IMG/VR virus record: IMGVR_UViG_3300023174_000121
Coordinates: 21,947 to 85,946 of that record
DNA from: a virus
Direction: 5' to 3' (one strand)
DNA: 64,000 nt
How positions within the stretch are numbered: the stretch's first letter is position 1; every line of letters starts with the position of its first letter. Shown here in pieces: positions 8,235-26,881 of this stretch. The position numbers were made by a program, and so were the translations under genes. The notes beneath the pieces were generated by a model. The model did no database searches. It was not told where the DNA came from and saw nothing but the letters and a program-made list of their open reading frames with translations.

Positions 8235-9252
8235 TTTTTTGTTTCTCCATTTCACTTTCACACATTTCGAATACCAAGTCTTTGAACGTGTACTCTGGCT
8301 TCCAGTCTAACACTTTCTTAGCTTTACTGCAATCACCGAAAATTGTTGGCACTTCTGCGGGACGATAGAAGTCTTTATTAACTTCAATAATTTTCGCACC
8401 AGTAGAAACATTGATACCGATTTCGCTAAGACCTTCGCCACGCCATTCAATTTTGAATCCGAGATACTCTGCAACATCTTCGCAAAAATCGCGAACCGAA
8501 TGCTCTTCATCGCTGGAGATAACATAGTCATCTGGTTTATCTTGTTGTAGCATCGCCCACATTGCACGGACATAATCTTTAGCGTGACCCCAATCACGGC
8601 GAGCATTTAGATTACCTAATTGAAGAATTGATTGCAAGCCTAGATGGGTACGAATCATTCCCTGAACGATCTTTCGAGTAACGAACTCTGGTCCACGTCG
8701 CGGACTTTCATGATTGAATAGAATGCCATTACATGCGAAGAGATTAAAACTTTCGCGATAGTTTACAACAATCCAGTAGCCGTAGAGTTTAGCAACAGCA
8801 TATGGCGAGCGTGGATAGAATGGTGTGGCTTCAGTTTGTGGAGTCTCTTTTACTTTGCCATACAATTCACTTGTTGATGCTTGATAAAATTTTACTTGTT
8901 TCTCTTTTGAGAGAGTCTTAACTGCTTCAAGCAATTTTAAAACACCGATTGCGTTTGCGTCACCAGTGTATGTTGGGCAATCATAGCTTACGCTAACGTG
9001 GCTTTGTGCGCCGAGATTATAAACCTCATCTGGCTTCACTTTAAAAACAATAGACTCTAGATTTGCAGAATCAGTCAAATCGCCATAATGAAGTTTAAGT
9101 CTATGTTGAATGAATTCAATGTTGCCGGCATTGATTCCTGTACTTGAACGTCTAACAATTCCATGAACTTCGTATCCTTTATCAAGTAGAAGTTCTGCGA
9201 GATAGCTTCCGTCTTGACCAGTAATACCAGTAATCAATGCAACTTTACTCAT
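8209..9252 (-). CDS. gmd: GDP-mannose 4,6-dehydratase
   Basis: A 347-aa enzyme with NADP loop [12 protein letters not shown] (9-20), RRSST, catalytic STSELYG (126-132), Tyr151 and Lys155 in YAVAK, and NHESPRRG. It converts GDP-D-mannose to GDP-4-keto-6-deoxy-D-mannose, precursor of fucose, rhamnose and other deoxysugars. First gene of the minus-strand sugar operon that runs to 2724. Full length, all active-site residues present. Confidence 0.97.
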
Positions 9253-9320
9253 AATTTTTCACCTCTAAAGAAAAACATTATTCTAACATACAACTATATA
9301 TCTAGCAAATTTTCTCAAAC

Positions 9321-9328
9321 AATAAATA
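9321..9328 (+). promoter_or_regulatory. Late-promoter-like box for plus-strand membrane genes
   Basis: AATAAATA, one mismatch from the T4 late box, 18 bp before the ATG at 9346 and followed by an AT-rich stretch and a GGAG site. The same AATAAATAAT string precedes the isolated plus-strand gene at 33656. Confidence 0.4.
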
Positions 9329-9345
9329 ATAAAAACGGAGAAAAT

Positions 9346-9630
9346 ATGGAATTTACCGACATTACTACTATCGTCGCTGATGTTGGATTTCCAATCTCAG
9401 CAGCAATTGCTGCTGGTTATTTCGTATTACTCTGTCTCAAATTCATTCTAGCTGGAGTCACCTCTTCTATCAAGTCATTAGAAGAGATTACAAAAAGCCT
9501 AGACAAAAGAATTGACATAATGAATTCCGAAGTAGAAAGAATTGACATTAAAATATCTCATGCTTTAGGATTACAGCCCAATTTTGGAAGAATTGCTCGG
9601 GCTAATCATAATGATGTTAGAAAAGATTAA
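9346..9630 (+). CDS. Small membrane protein with C-terminal coiled coil (holin-like)
   Basis: A 94-aa protein: one N-terminal membrane helix (about 12-37) followed by a charged helix with heptad pattern. ACGGAG seven bases before ATG at 9346 sets the start; the longer in-frame ORF from 9214 overlaps gmd and is rejected. It resembles the product at 10556 (both GFPI.AA...YFV, then coiled coil and LGLQ/LQLRG). Location beside a cell-wall hydrolase suggests lysis or holin function, but that is inference. Confidence 0.7.
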   Translation: MEFTDITTIVADVGFPISAAIAAGYFVLLCLKFILAGVTSSIKSLEEITKSLDKRIDIMNSEVERIDIKISHALGLQPNFGRIARANHNDVRKD

Positions 9631-9651
9631 AAACACTAGGGTCATTAGTCA

Positions 9652-9825
9652 ATGCCAAATACTAAAAGGCAAACGCATCATAGACAACCACATAAGTCTT
9701 CTTCCCCACAGGAGTCTGACAAAAAAGCACACACTGCTGGGATTGGCATACTTTTAATTTTACTCACCAACTATCAGGCTGAAATTAAACAAATTGTTTC
9801 GGCCCTACTAAAGGGTATAACATGA
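9652..9825 (+). CDS. Small membrane protein, 57 aa
   Basis: Basic, His/Gln/Ser-rich N-terminus, then a single hydrophobic segment (about 30-42, AGIGILLILL). The stop overlaps the next ATG (ATGA), showing coupling to the 244-aa gene. Function unknown; part of the four-gene plus-strand membrane cassette. Confidence 0.6.
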   Translation: MPNTKRQTHHRQPHKSSSPQESDKKAHTAGIGILLILLTNYQAEIKQIVSALLKGIT

Positions 9826-10556
9826 CTGCATTATTAAATAAAGTTTTTGAATATAAGAAACTACCTTTTATTCTTGGTGGTTTAATATTTGCATCTTCTC
9901 TGACACTTCTTTCTGTCTTTAAGACTGCTGAGACACAACTCACACAACTTGATAATGCACGAAAAGTTGCAAAAGAAATGTCTAAGAGTTCAGATGATCT
10001 AACTGCATATGCAAGATATTATGTCACTACTAAAAACGATAAATGGAAAATTGAATTTGAAAAAGTCTTAGCAATTCGTTCTGGTGAAATTCCAAACGAT
10101 GATGGACTAAAAAAATCTTTTAAAGATAAAGTCAAAGAAGTTGGATTTGAACAGAACGAACTCGATATGATTCTAAAGTCAGAACTCTTATCTAATGAAC
10201 TTGCAAAACTTGAAATCAAAGCATTTAAGAATATTGAAGATTATAAAGCAGAGAAAGAACCCGAAAAGAACGCAGAGAAATTAGGCATTCTTGCAGTACA
10301 GGCAGAAATGGCAATGTTTGGAGAAGATTACCAAAAGCATAAATTTCTTGTCATGGACGCTGCAAACGAATTCTATAATATTGTTCATGGTCGATTGAAC
10401 TCTGCATATAACAAATCAATGACGATTGCATGGGCTTTGATTTCTACAATTAATGTGTCTCTCCTAATGTTAATGATCTTCATTCAACATGGAAATAAAA
10501 TTGTAAAGAAACCAGTGCGTAAACCAAGAAAAGTAATTCCAAAAAAGGTAGAGTGA
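9822..10556 (+). CDS. Two-helix membrane protein with chemoreceptor-like sensor domain
   Basis: A 244-aa protein with membrane helices at about 13-32 and 203-222 and a soluble, mostly helical segment between. The segment DDLTAYARYYVTTKNDKWK...LAIRSGEIP closely follows the ligand-binding helix pattern of bacterial methyl-accepting receptors (LTRMARxYVxTG...I..IR.G..P). There is no HAMP, methylation or kinase-coupling domain; the protein ends in a short basic tail. It may sense or interfere with host receptors, or act in lysis control; neither is shown. Confidence 0.7.
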   Translation: MTALLNKVFEYKKLPFILGGLIFASSLTLLSVFKTAETQLTQLDNARKVAKEMSKSSDDLTAYARYYVTTKNDKWKIEFEKVLAIRSGEIPNDDGLKKSFKDKVKEVGFEQNELDMILKSELLSNELAKLEIKAFKNIEDYKAEKEPEKNAEKLGILAVQAEMAMFGEDYQKHKFLVMDAANEFYNIVHGRLNSAYNKSMTIAWALISTINVSLLMLMIFIQHGNKIVKKPVRKPRKVIPKKVE

Positions 10557-10840
10557 TGTATATTGTAGAGTTGATTAACAAGTATGGGTTTCCAATCATT
10601 GCTGCATTTGGACTAGCATACTTTGTTCACTACACTTGGATTTGGGTAACACTAGAAATAAAACCTGTTATTTCTAGTGCAAATAAATCACTCATCGATT
10701 TGATCGATAGAATAAGAACTCTTGATAATGATTTAATTCGACTCAATGAAAAGATCGACACAGTTCTACAACTTCGCGGCAGAACAATTGACGCAGAAAG
10801 AATAGCAGTAGACAAACAAATCAATAAAAATCAAGCATAG
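10556..10840 (+). CDS. Small membrane protein with C-terminal coiled coil, paralogue of 9346-9630
   Basis: A 94-aa protein with one membrane helix (YGFPIIAAFGLAYFVHYTWIW) and a coiled coil (LIDLIDRIRTLDNDLIRLNEKIDTVLQLRG). The ATG at 10556 shares its A with the preceding TGA; a GTG at 10553 is possible but less likely. The 3' end overlaps the convergent hydrolase gene by 10 bp. Holin-like by position only. Confidence 0.7.
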   Translation: MYIVELINKYGFPIIAAFGLAYFVHYTWIWVTLEIKPVISSANKSLIDLIDRIRTLDNDLIRLNEKIDTVLQLRGRTIDAERIAVDKQINKNQA

Positions 10841-11322
10841 AAAATGTGTTTGCCTATTTTGGTAATCACTTTCTTATTCCATCTAGGATTTACATAATTA
10901 GCATGATAATAAAGGGCATTGTCTAGCTTCTTTATTCTATGCCCACCAACAAGAATTCTATACGCAGCTTCTTTAGATGCGATAAATTCTTGTGAATCAT
11001 ATCTCATAAGCCGACTCTTCTTTTCACATACCCAAGAGAATTGACATGTTTTGTTAACTTTTTGATAGACTGTTTTGCAAACAGTATTACCAAACTTACC
11101 AGATTTAACTCTATTAAGAGTCACTTGCGCTACTGCAAGTTTACCCTCAAAAGATTCTGTTGCTGCTTCGTAATATATGTTTTGTGCTAAACAATTGATT
11201 TGTTGTTCTGTACTAGGAGTTATCAACTGATATTTGCTCTCTACAATTCCACTATCTACCGATAATATCAAACCAAAAAATAAAAAAGATCCTAGTAAGA
11301 CTTTTATAGTCTTTAGTATCAT
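10831..11322 (-). CDS. Cell-wall hydrolase, SleB/Hydrolase_2 family, with N-terminal signal or anchor
   Basis: A 163-aa protein with an N-terminal hydrophobic segment (about 5-25), then the Hydrolase_2 domain: CLAQNIYYEA (Glu52 in the catalytic position), GKLAVAQVTLNRVKSGKFG, CQFSWVCE, and the C-terminal ALYYHANYVNPRW...IGKHIFY. Such enzymes cleave peptidoglycan. The N-terminal segment suggests Sec export or a signal-anchor endolysin. A second lysin (GH19) is at 32983. Confidence 0.9.
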   Translation of the reverse strand: MILKTIKVLLGSFLFFGLILSVDSGIVESKYQLITPSTEQQINCLAQNIYYEAATESFEGKLAVAQVTLNRVKSGKFGNTVCKTVYQKVNKTCQFSWVCEKKSRLMRYDSQEFIASKEAAYRILVGGHRIKKLDNALYYHANYVNPRWNKKVITKIGKHIFYA

Positions 11323-11335
11323 CTACTTCCTTATC

Positions 11336-11648
11336 GAGTTTTGAAAGTGGTAGGTTATTCTGTTACGAGGAAACCTACCGAAACCCTAAGTGGTTATCAC
11401 GCCACTAATCTGTATTCGCTATCGTTTGCGTTTACTTGATTTGCTTCTACGGCCGAGTTGCCTCAACTCTACGGCTTTCGCATTGCCGTGTTGTCTGCAT
11501 CGATACTCTTTGCTCTGTCGAACCTAATTCGGGCCCATCATAAACATAATGTTTGGAACTTTTATTATGAGCATTATTATCTCATTCACCAGTAGACAAT
11601 ATGTTTATGGTGGACCCGGGGGAGAACTGCCCTCCCCGTCCAAAACTC
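11336..11648 (-). ncRNA. ssrA: Circularly permuted (two-piece) tmRNA
   Basis: Read on the minus strand the order is permuted. First comes an acceptor piece with a T-arm (GGGGAG, 7-nt loop, CTCCCC; 11637-11619) and CGGGTCC-ACCA ending at 11608. Next is a 71-nt intervening segment (11607-11537). The coding piece follows, beginning GGGCCCG (11536-11530) and then GGTTCGAC. GGGCCCG pairs with CGGGTCC as a 7-bp acceptor stem carrying a G3-U70 wobble, the alanyl-tRNA synthetase determinant. The resume codon starts the tag at 11429, and the stop lies in a hairpin loop (AGTGG...CCACT). GAGTTTTG (11648-11641) pairs with CAAAACTC (11343-11336), joining the two pieces. Further stems: ACGGC/GCCGT, GAGTTG/CAACTC, GGTAGGTT/AACCTACC. 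Exact mature ends are not determined. Confidence 0.93.
11397..11429 (-). other. tmRNA tag reading frame, ANDSEYRLVA
   Basis: GCA AAC GAT AGC GAA TAC AGA TTA GTG GCG TGA encodes ANDSEYRLVA. The AND start and the hydrophobic small-residue end match bacterial tags (E. coli ANDENYALAA), where the terminal residues direct proteolysis by ClpXP-type proteases. Confidence 0.9.
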
Positions 11649-11706
11649 ATTTTTCTTTGCTTCTTTCCTTTCAGAGTTTACAACAATACTTTTATTTAGT
11701 ATATCA

Positions 11707-12063
11707 TTATTTTACAAATGGTGCAAGGTTGGGTGATTTCCATCCCTCTGGCTTTAGCACTTTGCCATCTTCACGCTTTCGAACCTTTCCTGTGTCTTTA
11801 TCTATCTTGTCAAAATTGCTTCTTGCGACTTCACCCCATGCACCATTAACATCATAGCCTTTCATGTAGCAATAGCCAAGAATAACCCAAATCATATCCA
11901 TACATGCATCAAGTTTTTCTACTTCATCATCTTTATTGTTTGCTTGAATGAATTCATTAAACTCTTCAACAATTAGATTTCGATATAGACTTGCATTTGC
12001 TTTAGTCTTTTCTTGATCACACGCATCAATAAAAATTCGAACATCATCATACATTCTATTCAT
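11707..12063 (-). CDS. MazG-like nucleotide pyrophosphohydrolase
   Basis: A 118-aa all-helical protein with LIVEEFNEFIQA and EKLDACMDMIWVILGY, matching the EExxE/ExxD metal-binding helices of the MazG/PRA-PH group, plus a tail VRKREDGKVLKPEGWKSPNL common in phage members. GGAG six bases before the ATG at 12063 and overlap with the preceding stop define the start. Likely hydrolyses NTPs or alarmones. Confidence 0.8.
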   Translation of the reverse strand: MNRMYDDVRIFIDACDQEKTKANASLYRNLIVEEFNEFIQANNKDDEVEKLDACMDMIWVILGYCYMKGYDVNGAWGEVARSNFDKIDKDTGKVRKREDGKVLKPEGWKSPNLAPFVK

Positions 12064-12724
12064 ATAAAACTCCATCATATGCTTCACGGTAAGAAATAAA
12101 CTCTTTGATATAGTCATCGCGCTTTTTAATAAACACTTGCGGATGATCTGAATCAACTGCAATCATAATAACTAATTGAGTAACTGGAATTCCAGTACGC
12201 TCTTCATACATTACTGCATAAGCAGAGCATTGCATGAAATAGTTTTTAATATTAGCTTCTTTCTTTTGTTTAGAAGATGTTTTAAAATCAATGATTGAAA
12301 GTTTATTGTCATACTCTGCAATGCAATCAACACGACCAGCGACTTTCAAATGATGCGAATAGAGCGGAATCTCAATCGCATGGATGTTATTGATATGCTC
12401 ATCCATCAAAGGCTGCAATGATTTGAACATTACAAACGAATCTGGAATTGCTTTCTCTGCATACTTTTCTGAATTATTCAGATAGTCTTCACAGATTTTA
12501 TGCACTCTTGTTCCGCGACTCGATGCTTTAGTAGATATTCGATTTGCTTCCTCTTCACCAACTCTTTTACGCCAAGCAATAATATCTGCTTTGGTATGCT
12601 GTGATGTAATAGTTGTCACCGACGGATATAATTGTCCGTCGGGAGTTTTATAGAATCTTTTACCATTTACGGTTTCAGTTTCTAAGTCATAGTCAATTGC
12701 ACATGGCACATGATTAAATTTCAC
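12056..12724 (-). CDS. PD-(D/E)XK exonuclease (RecB/Cas4-like fold)
   Basis: A 222-aa protein with SVTTI, a GTRVHKICEDYL helix and the nuclease core GRVDCIAEYDNKLSIIDFKTS, which supplies the D...D-x-K catalytic residues; the helix FMQCSAYAVMYEE follows. Similar enzymes occur in T4-like phages and degrade or process DNA. Confidence 0.88.
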   Translation of the reverse strand: MKFNHVPCAIDYDLETETVNGKRFYKTPDGQLYPSVTTITSQHTKADIIAWRKRVGEEEANRISTKASSRGTRVHKICEDYLNNSEKYAEKAIPDSFVMFKSLQPLMDEHINNIHAIEIPLYSHHLKVAGRVDCIAEYDNKLSIIDFKTSSKQKKEANIKNYFMQCSAYAVMYEERTGIPVTQLVIMIAVDSDHPQVFIKKRDDYIKEFISYREAYDGVLYE

Positions 12725-12737
12725 TTTGCATAATCCA

Positions 12738-13520
12738 TTAATTTTGTATTGTGTCTTCGTATTGTAGTTTTGCTAATATGTAGTCTTTAACCAAAGAGGA
12801 TCGAACAATATCATCAGCAGTAAATTCGATTCTGGTGAATGCTTTCATGTGCATAGCAACGTCAAAGAATTTTAGAATACCTGTCTTGTCGTTTGATTTC
12901 CTTAGATCTGTTTGTCTATAGTCGCCACACCAAATAATTTTAGAGCGATATCCAACGCGAGTCATTACGGTATCAATCTCTTCGAAATTCATATTCTGCA
13001 TTTCGTCAACGATAATGATAGCATCATCAAATGACATACCGCGAATGAATGAAGTAGAAATGAATTCTACATAACCTTGCTCTGAAAGTCTAGCCCATGC
13101 ATCTTTACGTCCAAAGATTGTTTGGCAAATCTGTTGATATGGTTGCTGATAGATTTCCATCTTTTCAGTAACGTCACCAGGCAAATGACCAATCTCTCTT
13201 GATTGAACAGCGGAACGAACAACAATGATTTTATCAAATGGATTGTTCTTGTCGAGAACTTCCATTAATGATTTATACATTGCAATAAATGTCTTTCCTG
13301 TTCCAGCAACACCATGCAATGCTACGAAATAATCACCTCTATCATATGCATCAAAGAATAATTTTTGATTCTCTGTTAGTGGCTCAAACTTCTTTACATC
13401 ATCAAGTTTCAACTTCAATGTGTTATTAACTTGTCTTGGAGTTTTTGTTGACGTTTGTGGACCAGAAATTTCCAATTCATCAGATTGTGGAATTTTTGGT
13501 ACAGCAGGTTTTCTAGCCAT
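12738..13520 (-). CDS. phoH: PhoH-like P-loop ATPase
   Basis: A 260-aa protein with Walker A GVAGTGKT (70-77), VRSAVQSREIGHLPGD and Walker B IIIVDEMQNM. Widespread in aquatic phages; cellular PhoH proteins are RNA-associated ATPases and the phage role is unsettled. The N-terminal 45 residues are low-complexity. Confidence 0.95.
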   Translation of the reverse strand: MARKPAVPKIPQSDELEISGPQTSTKTPRQVNNTLKLKLDDVKKFEPLTENQKLFFDAYDRGDYFVALHGVAGTGKTFIAMYKSLMEVLDKNNPFDKIIVVRSAVQSREIGHLPGDVTEKMEIYQQPYQQICQTIFGRKDAWARLSEQGYVEFISTSFIRGMSFDDAIIIVDEMQNMNFEEIDTVMTRVGYRSKIIWCGDYRQTDLRKSNDKTGILKFFDVAMHMKAFTRIEFTADDIVRSSLVKDYILAKLQYEDTIQN

Positions 13521-22733: not shown

Positions 22734-22808
22734 TGGTGGGCCCACTAGGAATTGAACCTAGACTCAATCGATTATGAGTCGAACGCTTTACCATTAAGCT
22801 ATAGGCCC
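22734..22808 (-). tRNA. tRNA with CAT anticodon (Ile2 or Met)
   Basis: Cloverleaf with acceptor GGGCCTA/TGGGCCC, anticodon loop CTCATAA, T-arm CTAGG-TTCAATT-CCTAG, and encoded ACCA. The anticodon stem-loop CGACTCATAATCG resembles E. coli tRNA-Ile2 (lysidine-modified) more than elongator Met. Not an initiator, since pair 1-72 is G-C. Confidence 0.9.
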
Positions 22809-22820
22809 GTGAAATTTATT

Positions 22821-22849
22821 ACTATAACACTAAATTTATTTAATGTCAA
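22821..22849 (-). promoter_or_regulatory. Sigma70-like promoter between two tRNA genes
   Basis: TTGACA (22849-22844), 17-bp spacer, TATAGT (22826-22821). Located to transcribe the CAT tRNA and the genes after it. Confidence 0.7.
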
Positions 22850-22857
22850 TGTAATTT

Positions 22858-22940
22858 TGGTGGGGCTGGAGAGACTCGAACTCTCAAGCCGAAGCGTCTG
22901 GGCTTAAACCAGATGTGTTTGCCAATTTCACCACAGCCCC
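22858..22940 (-). tRNA. tRNA-Leu(TAA)
   Basis: Acceptor GGGGCTG/CAGCCCC with encoded ACCA; anticodon loop TTTAAGC; long variable arm as expected for leucine. Its 3' two-thirds overlaps the end of an HNH endonuclease gene. Confidence 0.95.
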
Positions 22941-23564
22941 ATGTAATAATTCGTTAGCCCTACTATAATTAGCTCCTTTTGGCGTCAATCCAAGTTTTAA
23001 CAATGCTTGTCTAATATTTTTAGTTGTATTTAATGCTTGCAAAAAATCATCATCAGAAACATATTGATCTTTTCTTTTATGTATGTTTTTCCCTTTCCAA
23101 GTTTCGGTAAATGAATGACAGTTAGGACATAATAGTTTCAAATTCTCCTTAACATTATTTTGATTATTCCCGTCTATATGTTCCAATTCTAATGTTATAG
23201 GTTTATCCAGCCATTTAGATAAACCACAATTTTCACAATTATGCCCACGTTCATTAATCAAAAATCCTTTATGATTTCCCAATTTACCATATTCGAATTT
23301 TGTATTTAAAAATTTATTTTTACTCCAAGCCATTCTTTTTTTAGTCTCTTCTGGTAGATTTTTATATCTCTCTGATCCAGAAATTCTTAAACCATTTTCA
23401 TATACTTTTTTTGTCGATTCTCTATTTTTAGATTTTATGGCTGGACAAGATTGTGATCTTTGTAAACACATTAAATTTCCCGAACCATTTTTATATGTGG
23501 CTACATTCCCACATCCATACGAGCATAAATCAGTAGTAATTATTGGATTTGCTATAAGTTTCAT
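22884..23564 (-). CDS. HNH homing-type endonuclease overlapping tRNA-Leu
   Basis: A 226-aa product from ATG 23564 (AGGAG upstream). Zn-binding N-terminal Cys pairs (CSYGCG), then an HNH core HNCENCGLSKW...LELEHIDGNNQNN...LLCPNCH. The C-terminal helix ALNTTKNIRQALLKLGL resembles a small DNA-binding repeat. The last 19 codons are read from tRNA-Leu, giving a C-terminus translated from tRNA sequence. A late promoter box precedes it. Confidence 0.88.
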   Translation of the reverse strand: MKLIANPIITTDLCSYGCGNVATYKNGSGNLMCLQRSQSCPAIKSKNRESTKKVYENGLRISGSERYKNLPEETKKRMAWSKNKFLNTKFEYGKLGNHKGFLINERGHNCENCGLSKWLDKPITLELEHIDGNNQNNVKENLKLLCPNCHSFTETWKGKNIHKRKDQYVSDDDFLQALNTTKNIRQALLKLGLTPKGANYSRANELLHGAVVKLANTSGLSPDASA

Positions 23565-23594
23565 AAAGCGACTCCTGTTAAAACGGTATACTTT

Positions 23595-23602
23595 ATTTAT
23601 AA
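23595..23602 (-). promoter_or_regulatory. T4-type late promoter box before the HNH gene
   Basis: TATAAATA on the minus strand, 31 bp before the HNH start. Late promoters before homing endonucleases are known in T-even phages. Confidence 0.6.
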
Positions 23603-23644
23603 AAAAACAAATGTATACCGTTCCACCACTCTCGCATTTTTGTA

Positions 23645-24133
23645 TCATATCACAATGTTTCCGTCGTTGTCAACTTCAATCCAAGTAGAGTCGCCCATGT
23701 AGCGAACTCTGCTTATGTATTCGTAATGTTCTGGTGCACCACAAGCCCAATCACTTGGACCATTGATGGTTAATCCAATGACGTTTGTTTGTTTGTTTAA
23801 GAATAGCCAATAGCATTGACCATGAAAGACTTGAAAGCTGTATTCAGCAGAATGTACTGCATCAGTAATATACAATCGACGTTTGATTTGTTCTGCTTGC
23901 TTTTGAAGCACGTTGACCATTTCCATGATTCGATCATATTCTTGTTGGGCATGCATTCTCGCAACATTAAGCATTAAATCTTTCTGCTGCTTTACTGGAA
24001 CTAACTCAAACTTTGGTGCACCTGCTTCTGTTGGATACTCTGTGATATTTCTATTCAAGAAGGTGACAAGACTATCTCCAATTTTACTATCAAAACTAGT
24101 TCTACCTTTGGATATATTAGACTTGTCACCCAT
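23645..24133 (-). CDS. DUF2452-family protein
   Basis: A 162-aa protein with EYPTEAGAPKFELVPV, a helix RMHAQQEYDRIMEMVNVLQKQ, and a C-terminal part FHGQCYWLFLN...ISRVRYMGDSTWIEV matching DUF2452. Function unknown; found in bacteria and phages. ATG 24133 follows the rubredoxin stop (TGATAATG). Confidence 0.75.
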   Translation of the reverse strand: MGDKSNISKGRTSFDSKIGDSLVTFLNRNITEYPTEAGAPKFELVPVKQQKDLMLNVARMHAQQEYDRIMEMVNVLQKQAEQIKRRLYITDAVHSAEYSFQVFHGQCYWLFLNKQTNVIGLTINGPSDWACGAPEHYEYISRVRYMGDSTWIEVDNDGNIVI

Positions 24134-24135
24134 TA

Positions 24136-24273
24136 TCACTCTTGTTCTAGGGGAACGTATTCGTCTTTATGACAACCGCAACTAGGGCAAAGATAAAACA
24201 TTGGCAAGTCTTCAAACTTACCATCAACTTCTTCATCATGAATATGGTTACACACTTGACATTCGTATTTCAT
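24136..24273 (-). CDS. Rubredoxin-like protein
   Basis: A 45-aa protein with both metal knuckles: CQVCNHIHDEE (Cys-x2-Cys) and LCPSCGCHKDEY (Cys-x2-Cys), separated by the rubredoxin segment DGKFEDLPMFYLCP. It would bind one iron or zinc. AGGAG before ATG 24273. Electron partner unknown; a structural zinc ribbon is also possible. Confidence 0.82.
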   Translation of the reverse strand: MKYECQVCNHIHDEEVDGKFEDLPMFYLCPSCGCHKDEYVPLEQE

Positions 24274-24297
24274 AAAAAAACTCCTAAAAAAATAAAG

Positions 24298-24373
24298 TGG
24301 CGCGGCTGGAGAGATTCGAACTCCCGACAGACCGGGTAGAAGCCGGTTACTCTATCCACTGAGTTACAGCCGC
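24298..24373 (-). tRNA. tRNA-Arg(TCT)
   Basis: Acceptor GCGGCTG/CAGCCGC, discriminator G, encoded CCA, anticodon loop CTTCTAC, T-arm GGGAG-TTCGAAT-CTCTC. Reads AGA/AGG, favoured in AT-rich phage genes. Confidence 0.96.
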
Positions 24374-24384
24374 ATTGTGAAAAC

Positions 24385-24413
24385 ATTATATAACACTAAT
24401 TCCTGGAAATCAA
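24385..24413 (-). promoter_or_regulatory. Sigma70-like promoter for tRNA-Arg and following genes
   Basis: TTGATT (24413-24408), 17-bp spacer, TATAAT (24390-24385), 12 bp before the mature tRNA 5' end. Confidence 0.75.
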
Positions 24414-25046
24414 GTCATCCACGAACTCTATCAATAACTGATGATGTTTGTAGTCATGCCATTTGGATTCTAAATATTGCCAAGGCTCTTCGTACCAATA
24501 TTTCATACTTTCTGGATGACAACCAATTAAGCCAACTCGCCGTTGTATGATTGCCATCGGATCTCCATTTGCATACCTAGCAATAACATCAAATTTTGAT
24601 TCGTCGCCTATGATAGCACATCCATCATAGAAAAACATATCTTGTTCAGAACCTTTCCAATTCACTTTTGCTATAGTAGCATATGATCGCTTTATCTCAG
24701 CATTGTCTCGTTTGATATATTGCACAACATCCATATCATTCACTATGTCAAAATATCTTGGAGCTGCCCAATACGCACCCATGCATATGCCTAGATAACG
24801 TCCACCCCAGAATACATAATCTGCAACTTTGTTTGCAACTTTTCTTTTGAAAAGATGATGATAAGAATTACTGTCGCCAATTCCACCAGGGAATATTACG
24901 CAATAGAATTGATTTAGATTTAATTCGCCAGCTAATTCGTTTATGTCAAATACTTGAACTTCATACTTTGAAGATAGTATTGCTGAGATTGCGACACAGC
25001 AATCTTGAGAACACTCTGGATGATTAATGAATAGTCCGACTTTCAT
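24396..25046 (-). CDS. BPL_N / class I glutamine amidotransferase-like protein
   Basis: A 216-aa flavodoxin-like alpha/beta protein: VIFPGGIGDSNSYHHLF, nucleophile elbow GGRYLGICMGAYWA with Cys in GxCxG, and His in GCHPES. This matches the biotin-protein-ligase N-terminal (GATase1-like) domain. The ligase part is absent. Its ATG starts with the final A of the tRNA-Gly CCA. Substrate unknown. Confidence 0.82.
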   Translation of the reverse strand: MKVGLFINHPECSQDCCVAISAILSSKYEVQVFDINELAGELNLNQFYCVIFPGGIGDSNSYHHLFKRKVANKVADYVFWGGRYLGICMGAYWAAPRYFDIVNDMDVVQYIKRDNAEIKRSYATIAKVNWKGSEQDMFFYDGCAIIGDESKFDVIARYANGDPMAIIQRRVGLIGCHPESMKYWYEEPWQYLESKWHDYKHHQLLIEFVDDLISRN

Positions 25047-25119
25047 GGAGCGGGATATCGGAATCGAACCGATGACCGAAGATTGGAAATCTGCTGTTTT
25101 GCCATTAAACTAATCCCGC
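25046..25119 (-). tRNA. tRNA-Gly(TCC)
   Basis: Acceptor GCGGGAT/ATCCCGC, discriminator T, encoded CCA, anticodon loop TTTCCAA, T-arm TCGG-TTCGATT-CCGA. The terminal A is also the A of the next gene's ATG. Confidence 0.95.
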
Positions 25120-25126
25120 ATTCACT

Positions 25127-25522
25127 TTATGCAATAAGTCTTTTCTGCTTCACTTTCTCTGCTGTTTCTTTTAATACAACTTTTAAATTTTCAACGTTTT
25201 TTAAAATCTCTGCTGCATCTTCCCGGACATTTGGATTGAATGCTTTAAAATTATCTCCATGACCAATCAATAGATGACAATCATTGTCCATGCATAGGGT
25301 GATTAGATTGCTTTCTTCCAATTCTAATTCTGGATGCAAATGAAATGGCTGAACGTGATGTACATTTAAATGCTCTTTAGAACCACACGCTGCACAAGAC
25401 GGATGCTTTTTAATAAATTTATGTTGAACAGTAGGCCAATGTGGACTTCTTTCTTGCGTGATTCCTTTGTCTTTATTGTCTAATTTCTTTTGACTCTTTT
25501 TTCTCCGCGCGGTTGTTGTCAT
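25127..25522 (-). CDS. HNH endonuclease
   Basis: A 131-aa protein, basic N-terminus, then CAACGSKEHLNVHHVQPFHLHPE (two zinc Cys and the HH of the HNH core), ESNLITLCMDNDCHLLIGHG. It sits between tRNA-Gly and tRNA-Thr; probably a mobile or free-standing homing nuclease. Confidence 0.88.
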   Translation of the reverse strand: MTTTARRKKSQKKLDNKDKGITQERSPHWPTVQHKFIKKHPSCAACGSKEHLNVHHVQPFHLHPELELEESNLITLCMDNDCHLLIGHGDNFKAFNPNVREDAAEILKNVENLKVVLKETAEKVKQKRLIA

Positions 25523-25546
25523 TTTTATTATCCTTTTTTAATTGTA

Positions 25547-25617
25547 TGCCCCTTGACAGAATCGAACTGCCAATTGATGATTACAAATCAACTGTTATAC
25601 CATTTAACTAAAAGGGC
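25547..25617 (-). tRNA. tRNA-Thr(TGT)
   Basis: Acceptor GCCCTTT/AAGGGGC, discriminator A, anticodon loop TTTGTAA, T-arm GGCAG-TTCGATT-CTGTC. CCA is not encoded here, unlike its neighbours (next bases TAC). Confidence 0.92.
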
Positions 25618-25637
25618 TTCGAAAACACACACATTGT

Positions 25638-25713
25638 TGGCTCCCCGACCTGGGATCGAACCAGGGACCGACGGATTAACAGTCCGGCGCTCTACCGCTG
25701 AGCTATCAGGGAA
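25638..25713 (-). tRNA. tRNA-Asn(GTT)
   Basis: Acceptor TTCCCTG/TCGGGGA, anticodon loop CTGTTAA, T-arm CCTGG-TTCGATC-CCAGG, encoded GCCA. Confidence 0.96.
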
Positions 25714-25745
25714 TGTATAGTATATAGCATTAAAAAAGAACAATT

Positions 25746-25833
25746 TGGCGGATAGTATAGGATTCGAACCTATGCGCCGATTTCTCAGCGACAGTTTAGC
25801 AAACTGCTCCTTTAACCACTCAGGCAACTATCC
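25746..25833 (-). tRNA. tRNA-Ser(GCT)
   Basis: Acceptor GGATAGT/ACTATCC, anticodon loop TTGCTAA, long variable arm, encoded GCCA. Confidence 0.96.
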
Positions 25834-25838
25834 TCGTC

Positions 25839-25928
25839 TGGCGGAAGCGGTGAGATTCGAACTCACGGAGCCTTTGCAGACTCTTCAGTTTTCAAGACTG
25901 ACGGATTAAACCACTCTCCCACGCTTCC
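25839..25928 (-). tRNA. tRNA-Ser(TGA)
   Basis: Acceptor GGAAGCG/CGCTTCC, anticodon loop CTTGAAA, long variable arm, encoded GCCA. Confidence 0.96.
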
Positions 25929-25934
25929 TGAAAT

Positions 25935-26011
25935 TGGTTGGTCTACCCGGATTCGAACCGGGAACTCTCAGATTAAAAGTCTGATAATCTGACCAATTGA
26001 GTTATAGACCA
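25935..26011 (-). tRNA. tRNA-Lys(TTT)
   Basis: Acceptor TGGTCTA/TAGACCA, anticodon loop CTTTTAA, T-arm CCCGG-TTCGAAT-CCGGG, encoded ACCA. Confidence 0.96.
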
Positions 26012-26016
26012 GTTGT

Positions 26017-26093
26017 TGGTGCCTCCACCTGGATTTGAACCAGGGACTTCCACCTTATCAAGATGGCACTCTGACCAACTGAGTTATAGAGGC
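26017..26093 (-). tRNA. tRNA-Ile(GAT)
   Basis: Acceptor GCCTCTA/TGGAGGC, anticodon loop TTGATAA, T-arm CCTGG-TTCAAAT-CCAGG, encoded ACCA. Confidence 0.96.
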
Positions 26094-26096
26094 AAT

Positions 26097-26171
26097 TGGC
26101 GGTCCCAGCGAGAATCGAACTCGCCTCTACGGCGTGACAAGCCGTTATACTAACCGATATACTATGGAACC
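26097..26171 (-). tRNA. tRNA-Asp(GTC)
   Basis: Acceptor GGTTCCA/TGGGACC, anticodon loop TTGTCAC, T-arm GCGAG-TTCGATT-CTCGC, encoded GCCA. Confidence 0.95.
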
Positions 26172-26176
26172 AATTA

Positions 26177-26251
26177 TGGTGGATCGTGACAGGATCGAAC
26201 TGCCGACATTCGCCGTGTAAAGGCGCTACTCTACCTCTGAGTTAACGATCC
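26177..26251 (-). tRNA. tRNA-Val(TAC)
   Basis: Acceptor GGATCGT/ACGATCC, anticodon loop TTTACAC, T-arm GGCAG-TTCGATC-CTGTC, encoded ACCA. Confidence 0.95.
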
Positions 26252-26257
26252 AAAATT

Positions 26258-26340
26258 TGGTGGAGGATGGGAGGATGGGAGGATCGAACTCCCACTAAAG
26301 GCTTGCAAAGCCCCTGTGCTCCCATTATCACTAATCCCCC
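26258..26340 (-). tRNA. tRNA-Ala(TGC) with an 8-nt tandem duplication of the 3' acceptor strand
   Basis: 5' strand GGGGGAT, anticodon loop TTTGCAA, T-arm GGGAG-TTCGATC-CTCCC. After the T-arm the acceptor strand ATCCTCC occurs twice (ATCCTCCC then ATCCTCC-ACCA). Removing 8 nt gives a normal tRNA; as written the molecule is 8 nt too long at the acceptor. Function uncertain. Confidence 0.85.
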
Positions 26341-26357
26341 AATACTGTTAAAGAACA

Positions 26358-26434
<77 letters not shown>

Positions 26435-26445
26435 AAATTTGTCAA

Positions 26446-26519
26446 TGGCTCCGGTGGAGAGAATCGAACTCCCACTAGTGGTTTTGGAGACCACCGCACT
26501 GCCATTATACTACACCGGA
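26446..26519 (-). tRNA. tRNA-Trp(CCA)
   Basis: Acceptor TCCGGTG/CACCGGA, anticodon loop CTCCAAA, T-arm GGGAG-TTCGATT-CTCTC, encoded GCCA. Confidence 0.96.
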
Positions 26520-26524
26520 ACAAA

Positions 26525-26593
26525 CCATATGGAAACACACTCCTCTCTTTGTTGTCGCCGCCTAGGTTCGGCTCAGAATGTGTTTCCATATGG
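26525..26593. repeat. 15-bp perfect inverted repeat 3' of tRNA-Tyr
   Basis: CCATATGGAAACACA (26525-26539) and its exact complement (26579-26593) enclose 39 nt. The right arm includes the CCA of tRNA-Tyr. A diverged copy of the same arms lies on the other side of this tRNA. Confidence 0.9.
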
Positions 26594-26677
26594 TGGGTAG
26601 CCAGGGAATCGAACCCCGTTGCCGCTAAGGACCACAGATTTACAGTCTGCTGCATTCACCAATGATGCTCGCTACCC
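26591..26677 (-). tRNA. tRNA-Tyr(GTA)
   Basis: Acceptor GGGTAGC/GCTACCC, anticodon loop CTGTAAA, long variable arm, T-arm GGG-TTCGATT-CCC, encoded ACCA. Flanked on both sides by related inverted repeats. Confidence 0.95.
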
Positions 26678-26715
26678 ATATTGAAACACACTAATTCTAA
26701 TGTGCTTGAATATGG
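26676..26715. repeat. Imperfect inverted repeat 5' of tRNA-Tyr
   Basis: CCATATTGAAACACA (26676-26690) pairs 13 of 15 with 26701-26715 around a 10-nt loop. Related in sequence to the repeat at 26525-26593. Confidence 0.8.
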
Positions 26716-26764
26716 TGTCACTCTCCTGACCACTTTTAACGGAGGGGGTAGAGCCTTGAGTGAC
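26713..26764 (-). ncRNA. 52-nt tRNA-like element with acceptor stem and ACCA
   Basis: Minus strand: GTCACTC (26764-26758) pairs perfectly over 7 bp with GAGTGAC (26723-26717), followed by ACCA (26716-26713). The 34-nt interior has no recognisable T-arm or anticodon arm. It could be a decayed tRNA, a minihelix substrate for CCA or aminoacylation enzymes, or a processing signal. Confidence 0.5.
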
Positions 26765-26803
26765 TTGTCTTAGACAGGCTTTATTCCTGGTTACTAACCA
26801 TTT

Positions 26804-26881
26804 TGGTGCCCAAGGTCGGATTCGAACCGACACGACCTTGCTTCTAAGGCAAGTACCTCATACCAATTGGGTTACTTGGGC
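26804..26881 (-). tRNA. tRNA with TAG anticodon, Leu-type, lacking a long variable arm
   Basis: Acceptor GCCCAAG/CTTGGGC, anticodon stem CTTGC/GCAAG with loop CTTAGAA (anticodon TAG, codon CTA, Leu), T-arm GTCGG-TTCGAAT-CCGAC, encoded ACCA. The variable region is only about 5 nt, unlike normal class II leucine tRNAs. Confidence 0.9.

Follow-up and report, generated by a model that had tools for sequence, protein, structure and literature searches.

Does the region between the MazG-like and endolysin genes of an uncultivated phage with genes of T4-like type encode a working tmRNA made in two pieces, and where did its parts come from? An earlier note, made from the letters alone, had recognized a circularly permuted tmRNA on the minus strand of the 64,000-nucleotide stretch analyzed here (the window). 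Two Rfam 15 covariance models match the window above their cut-offs: RF04321 (tmRNA_permuted) with 81.9 bits against a cut-off of 47 (E=3.8e-14; model positions 1-213 of 213) and RF01849 (alpha_tmRNA) with 51.2 bits against a cut-off of 50 (E=2.3e-11). These E-values put the window tmRNA far above chance, although the RF01849 score barely exceeds its cut-off, which we counted against a working tmRNA. We also counted against it the result of ARAGORN, which reported 17 tRNAs over the window and missed the tmRNA at 11349-11690; the program nevertheless called permuted tmRNAs in ~45 related loci of our first batch, a result independent of the pattern survey described below, and it calls the copy of locus L034, whose tRNA-like domain is the same as that of the window copy. 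The covariance-model check suggested in the earlier note was thus positive, and the ARAGORN check succeeded in relatives but not in the window itself. The features of the locus and its neighbors are as follows.

11349-11690, minus strand: two-piece tmRNA, tag ANDSEYRLVA (direct reading and Rfam)
11608-11690, minus strand: acceptor piece ending in ACCA, 5' end approximate (RF04321 and RF01849 alignments)
11680-11684, minus strand: GUUGU, 5' strand of a probable inter-piece helix, partner ACAAC at 11494-11490 (RF04321/RF01850 model helix)
11641-11646, minus strand: P2 5' strand GUUUUG, partner CAGAGC at 11517-11512 (RF04321 alignment)
11619-11637, minus strand: T-arm, 6-bp stem GGGGAG/CTCCCC, alpha-type loop GGCAGTT
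11608-11618, minus strand: acceptor 3' strand CGGGUCC and ACCA (pairing in relatives)
11537-11607, minus strand: 71-nt intervening segment, TGAT at 11540-11537 facing ACCA (helix statistics, fold)
11530-11536, minus strand: acceptor 5' strand GGGCCCG, opening the coding piece (alignment, relatives)
11517-11529, minus strand: D-loop region AATTAGGTTCGAC (D-loop/T-loop covariation)
11455-11489, minus strand: two hairpins ahead of the resume codon, ACGGC/GCCGT and GAGTTG/CAACTC (fold)
11400-11429, minus strand: tag frame ANDSEYRLVA, resume codon GCA at 11429-11427 (direct reading)
11397-11399, minus strand: stop codon TGA, then TAA (direct reading)
11389-11406, minus strand: stop hairpin AGTGG/CCACT (both arms changed relative to AGCAG/CTGCT of L035 and L127)
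11349-11386, minus strand: 3' pseudoknot region, stem GGTAGGTT/AACCTACC, loop CCTCGTAACAGAA (viral-contig pattern)
10831-11322, minus strand: endolysin/cell wall hydrolase, downstream neighbor (phrog_938, E=7e-22)
11707-12162, minus strand: MazG-like pyrophosphohydrolase, upstream neighbor (phrog_671, E=2e-33)
12056-12724, minus strand: exonuclease (phrog_298, E=5e-82)
12738-13520, minus strand: PhoH-like gene (phrog_170, E=5e-82)

The permuted order that had been proposed is read directly in the sequence: the T-arm and CGGGTCC-ACCA (11637-11608) lie upstream of the coding piece that starts GGGCCCG (11536-11530), and the intervening segment lies between them. A standard one-piece tmRNA needs the 5' acceptor strand before the tag and the 3' strand after it, the reverse of what is found here, and was rejected. 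The other parts described beforehand are likewise present, namely a 7-bp acceptor stem with a G3-U70 wobble, paired edges of the intervening segment (TAAACATA, 11607-11600, with TATGTTTA, 11548-11541), a GCA resume codon that begins the ten-codon tag, and a TGA stop inside a hairpin loop. The extent needs revision, since the element had been placed at 11336-11648, whereas the coding piece ends near 11349 and the acceptor piece extends to about 11690, a limit set from the conserved helix strand at 11684-11680.

A helix joining the far ends, GAGTTTTG (11648-11641) with CAAAACTC (11343-11336), had also been proposed. The two strands are complementary, yet relatives do not keep them as a helix: L037, L035, L116, and L127 retain the 3' sequence with a different 5' side (GGTATTTCGGAC), and L034 is without the 3' side. 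Because the two sides vary separately in these five loci, we rejected this helix. The 3' strand is the endolysin gene's leader; the GUUUUG of the 5' strand pairs with CAGAGC as P2 instead.

For comparison, ~280 IMG/VR phage loci were gathered through searches with the neighboring exonuclease and endolysin and with a 3'-end pattern. The pattern survey gave 136 permuted tmRNAs in 135 loci, at least 119 of them distinct; the count of 136 takes in the window, the record it comes from, and a few rows that had been parsed wrongly and were later excluded, and the share of copies with the 3' pattern is a biased figure because one batch was selected on it. Base pairing is kept in more than 100 relatives. 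All seven acceptor-stem pairs are present in 118 of 119, G3-U70 is invariant in 119, and pairs 4 to 6 covary. The intervening helix, scored as the first eight bases of the segment against the eight bases preceding TGAT, has a mean of 7.42 of 8 pairs over 78 distinct helices, compared with 4.98 for shuffled partners (maximum 5.36 in 1000 trials), and TGAT stands opposite ACCA in 64 of the 78; this helix is maintained by compensatory change. P2 is fully paired in 107 of 112 relatives (mean 5.94/6), although shuffling the partners already gives 5.33/6. An extra helix between the two pieces, GUUGU/ACAAC upstream of P2, is likely; its strands are complementary and varied in relatives but score only weakly better than shuffles.

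The D-loop and T-loop change together. All 51 copies with AG in the D-loop, six of which have one base more there, carry G at T-loop position 2, and all 65 with GG, one of which has an additional base, carry T; these are tallies over related sequences, not independent events. This covariation would correspond in place to the tRNA 18-55 contact, and the loops switch between copies that share most of the body (L034 versus L037 and L065 versus L066). Covariation is strong in the acceptor stem, the intervening-segment helix, and the 18-55 tertiary contact. Only 3 of 119 copies (the window, L034, and L156) have a T-stem of 6 bp where 5 bp is usual, a rarity that was counted against a working tmRNA. 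The three 6-bp stems span two different T-loop types.

Every one of the 117 distinct tags starts with AND or ANE and finishes with AA or VA. Third codon positions show much silent variation, and tag ends and reading frame are under constraint in the relatives. In the window, the tail GTGGCG with CCAC replaces GCAGCC with CTGC, both arms of the stop hairpin having changed together. RF04321 has exactly one match in each of 27 whole records. An exact pattern from the window's own coding piece found no match in viral contigs, DNA similarity of the window tmRNA to annotated phages gave none, and none of 26 records reached through a 1459-aa protein, most of them fragments, has a tmRNA. Two-piece tmRNAs are common and structurally maintained in uncultivated T4-like phages, far beyond the few annotated cases, and a standard tmRNA finder can overlook such genes.

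With two Rfam models, pairing kept across relatives, and a conserved tag and neighborhood, the locus is very probably a phage-encoded two-piece tmRNA that acts in trans-translation with host proteins. Anatomy, pairing, tag, and place are shown by the comparisons described here; expression, processing sites, charging, tagging, and benefit are modeled on bacterial tmRNA, for which these steps are established. The precursor would be transcribed together with the neighboring genes, and the intervening segment would fold back on itself, forming a helix past the acceptor stem, and be excised by host tRNA-processing enzymes, RNase P cutting before G11536 and 3' processing exposing ACCA at 11608. In the mature RNA, two pieces would be held together by the acceptor stem and P2, probably with the help of a further helix. 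Charging by host AlaRS would rely on G3-U70, and with host SmpB and EF-Tu the RNA would enter stalled ribosomes, where translation would resume at GCA 11429, the tag would be appended, the ribosome freed, and the tagged product passed to host proteases. Host SmpB is presumably used, since no SmpB was found in 27 phage records (the window's and 26 others). The likely benefit is that ribosomes stay available while mRNAs are cut during infection.

Could the RNA instead be a decoy that competes with the host tmRNA for SmpB or ribosomes and so alters host quality control? There is a precedent in the tag-less tmRNA of mycobacteriophage DS6A, reported to act as a decoy in E. coli (PMC11915505), and the window tail RLVA is unlike the ALAA usual in relatives. 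A decoy, however, needs neither an intact and constrained tag frame nor a resume codon, stop codon, and stop hairpin, all of which are present, and we regard this explanation as quite unlikely. Similarly improbable is a decaying copy, acquired from a host or another phage, whose function has been lost in this phage. The score of 81.9 bits, low next to 90-160 in relatives, the failure of ARAGORN on the window copy, and the mosaic composition described below would fit decay, but all stems are intact, the acceptor stem, intervening helix, and stop hairpin carry matched changes in both arms, and the tRNA-like domain is identical to that of L034. That the element merely resembles a tmRNA and instead serves the endolysin mRNA as a structured leader or in its processing is very improbable: it directly precedes the start of the endolysin gene at 11322, and detached copies of its 3' pseudoknot stand ahead of other genes, but two tmRNA models match over the full length, G3-U70 is invariant, the tag is conserved, and in other phages other genes follow the tmRNA.

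A working phage tmRNA in two pieces is not new in itself. The earlier note took a permuted copy in a T4-like phage to be novel, a claim that fails because phage two-piece tmRNAs were already reported in 2022, including that of the T4-like myophage Melnitz (PMC9004378). In that study, 53 two-piece forms, mostly aquatic, were counted among 133 unique phage tmRNAs, and 17 of 47 related contigs had one (PMC9004378). Pelagibacter phage HTVC008M, itself T4-like, also has a permuted tmRNA, unannotated (NC_020484.1:145161-145370, L319; RF04321, 90.6 bits), and both gp23 and RF04321 match in Melnitz as in HTVC008M. The HTVC008M tmRNA overlaps the end of the annotated gene I899_gp194. Methylophilales phage Melnitz (MZ577095) resembles the window in having the permuted tmRNA downstream of PhoH and a homologous exonuclease, with SmpB not found. 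Unlike the window copy, its tmRNA carries the tag ANDNYVPVDYALAA and is close in sequence to the alpha-type L112, and a glutamine riboswitch has been claimed in Melnitz, while Rfam finds none in the window. HTVC008M shares the neighborhood and differs in its tag, ANFNEYALAA. No permuted tmRNA was found in T4, P-SSM2, or ACG-2014d. Xanthomonas phage Rb1 (PQ569993.1:16300-16605, L314) has an unannotated one of 103.4 bits with the tag ANDDNFRPALRLAA, adjoining tRNA-Phe; the Rb1 genome is 91 kb, and gp23 was not found in it.

Gene order in the window is PhoH, exonuclease, MazG-like, tmRNA, and endolysin. The order in HTVC008M is PhoH, endolysin, exonuclease, a hypothetical gene, and then the tmRNA, and in Melnitz PhoH, a small gene, the exonuclease homologue, two small genes, and then the annotated SsrA. 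The window exonuclease is 47% identical to the gene at the same place in both phages, and the position of the tmRNA is common to phages of different hosts. The window's exonuclease, helicase, primase, and ribonucleotide reductase genes are of T4-like-phage type; gp23 (PF07068) is not in the window's 86-kb fragment and is in 14 of 27 tmRNA-bearing records. The 17 tRNA genes cluster at 22734-26881, all on the minus strand. At 9214-10840, two plus-strand phrog_18771 genes (function not known) flank an unmatched 244-aa gene, running against the main gene direction.

What sets the window copy apart is that it joins parts of different origin. Its tRNA-like domain differs from that of L034 at 0 of 46 sites, and the remainder at 115 of 329, about 35% (Fisher p=1.9e-8). 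Between L034 and L037, 17 of 46 domain sites and 19 of 309 sites elsewhere are different (p=6.8e-8); both tests assume independent sites and overstate significance. The 71-nt intervening segment between the domain halves is 97% identical in L034 and L037. The window tag and 3' end match L037 at 97-99%. Ahead of the tag lies a segment of yet another, third type, which most resembles those of L203, L302, and L280. The siblings that have the tag and 3' end of the window (L037, L116, and L127) have RF01850 (betaproteobacterial) as their best older model; for the window copy it is RF01849 (alphaproteobacterial), whose T-loop GGCxGTx and matching D-loop it has (GGCAGTT). Unlike RF01850, the window has an alpha-type tRNA-like domain and the 3' loop CCTCGTAACAGAA where that model has CCUUGuuACcaAA; unlike RF01849, it matches weakly outside the tRNA-like domain and has a longer intervening segment. 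The window copy is thus a mosaic, an alpha-type tRNA-like domain on a body with beta-type siblings, and the tmRNA parts have been exchanged separately, by a route that we infer below.

The pattern around the 3' loop occurs in at least 120 viral contigs. Two exact patterns for the 3' pseudoknot, run with no positive control, gave 0 matches in bacterial and archaeal genomes, a distribution that suggests a virus-maintained lineage.

Several related loci contain a further gene. In L209, L211, L236, L249, and L262, a complete tmRNA is followed by an antisense open frame and then by a second, displaced 3' end. The encoded proteins have matches to phrog_314 (homing endonuclease; E as low as 1.4e-19), with GIY-YIG just over cut-off in one and NUMOD3 over cut-off in another. 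A search with this family gave 50 loci (L323-L372). A phage tmRNA tag lies directly upstream and antisense of the endonuclease in 47 of them; two of the other three end at a contig edge, and one is a 26-residue match. Beyond the endonuclease, 41 of the 50 have a displaced pseudoknot, sometimes with an old tag tail. Occupied tmRNAs often have the tag tails LMAA, LMVA, or RIAA. Each of 10 whole records has one strong endonuclease copy, near and convergent with its only tmRNA, and one of them has an additional weak second copy. At the junctions, the left side carries the new tag tail and pseudoknot, and the right side, in several loci, a remnant of the resume region with the old tail (AGTAAA-GCAAAC ... 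GCATTAGCAGCCTAA). The association between endonuclease and tmRNA is well supported. In annotated phages the family has distant relatives, with identities reaching about 43% at most, and a structure prediction (pLDDT 65) was too weak for a fold search. The literature consulted, largely without subscription journals, gave no earlier description of a tmRNA-adjoining endonuclease family, and the gene next to related tmRNAs looks like an undescribed selfish DNA-cutting gene; the family has the look of a homing element that targets tmRNA genes and provides them with a new 3' end.

A modular lineage maintained by viruses is a tempting but tentative reading of the permuted tmRNA in these aquatic T4-like phages, and we consider it less likely than not. 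On this reading, the tRNA-like domain, tag tail, and 3' pseudoknot would pass from phage to phage with the aid of dedicated GIY-YIG endonucleases. An endonuclease gene would enter a tmRNA gene where the tag is encoded, carrying along a new tail and pseudoknot, and the former 3' end would remain as a leftover. Exchange of this kind would have produced the mosaic allele of the window. The endonuclease gene was not found in the window's own record, and we infer both its mobility and its connection with this allele. Through the mosaic build and the associated endonucleases it becomes testable why phages keep a tmRNA and how recombination can rebuild a split RNA gene with its function intact.

The pseudoknot also occurs by itself. 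In L233, L255, and L268 (with a second copy near L268:8038), it is detached, behind a small gene, with no adjoining tmRNA parts, and sits just before the ribosome-binding site of the next gene; the detached pseudoknot may serve a separate function, for instance protecting RNA ends.
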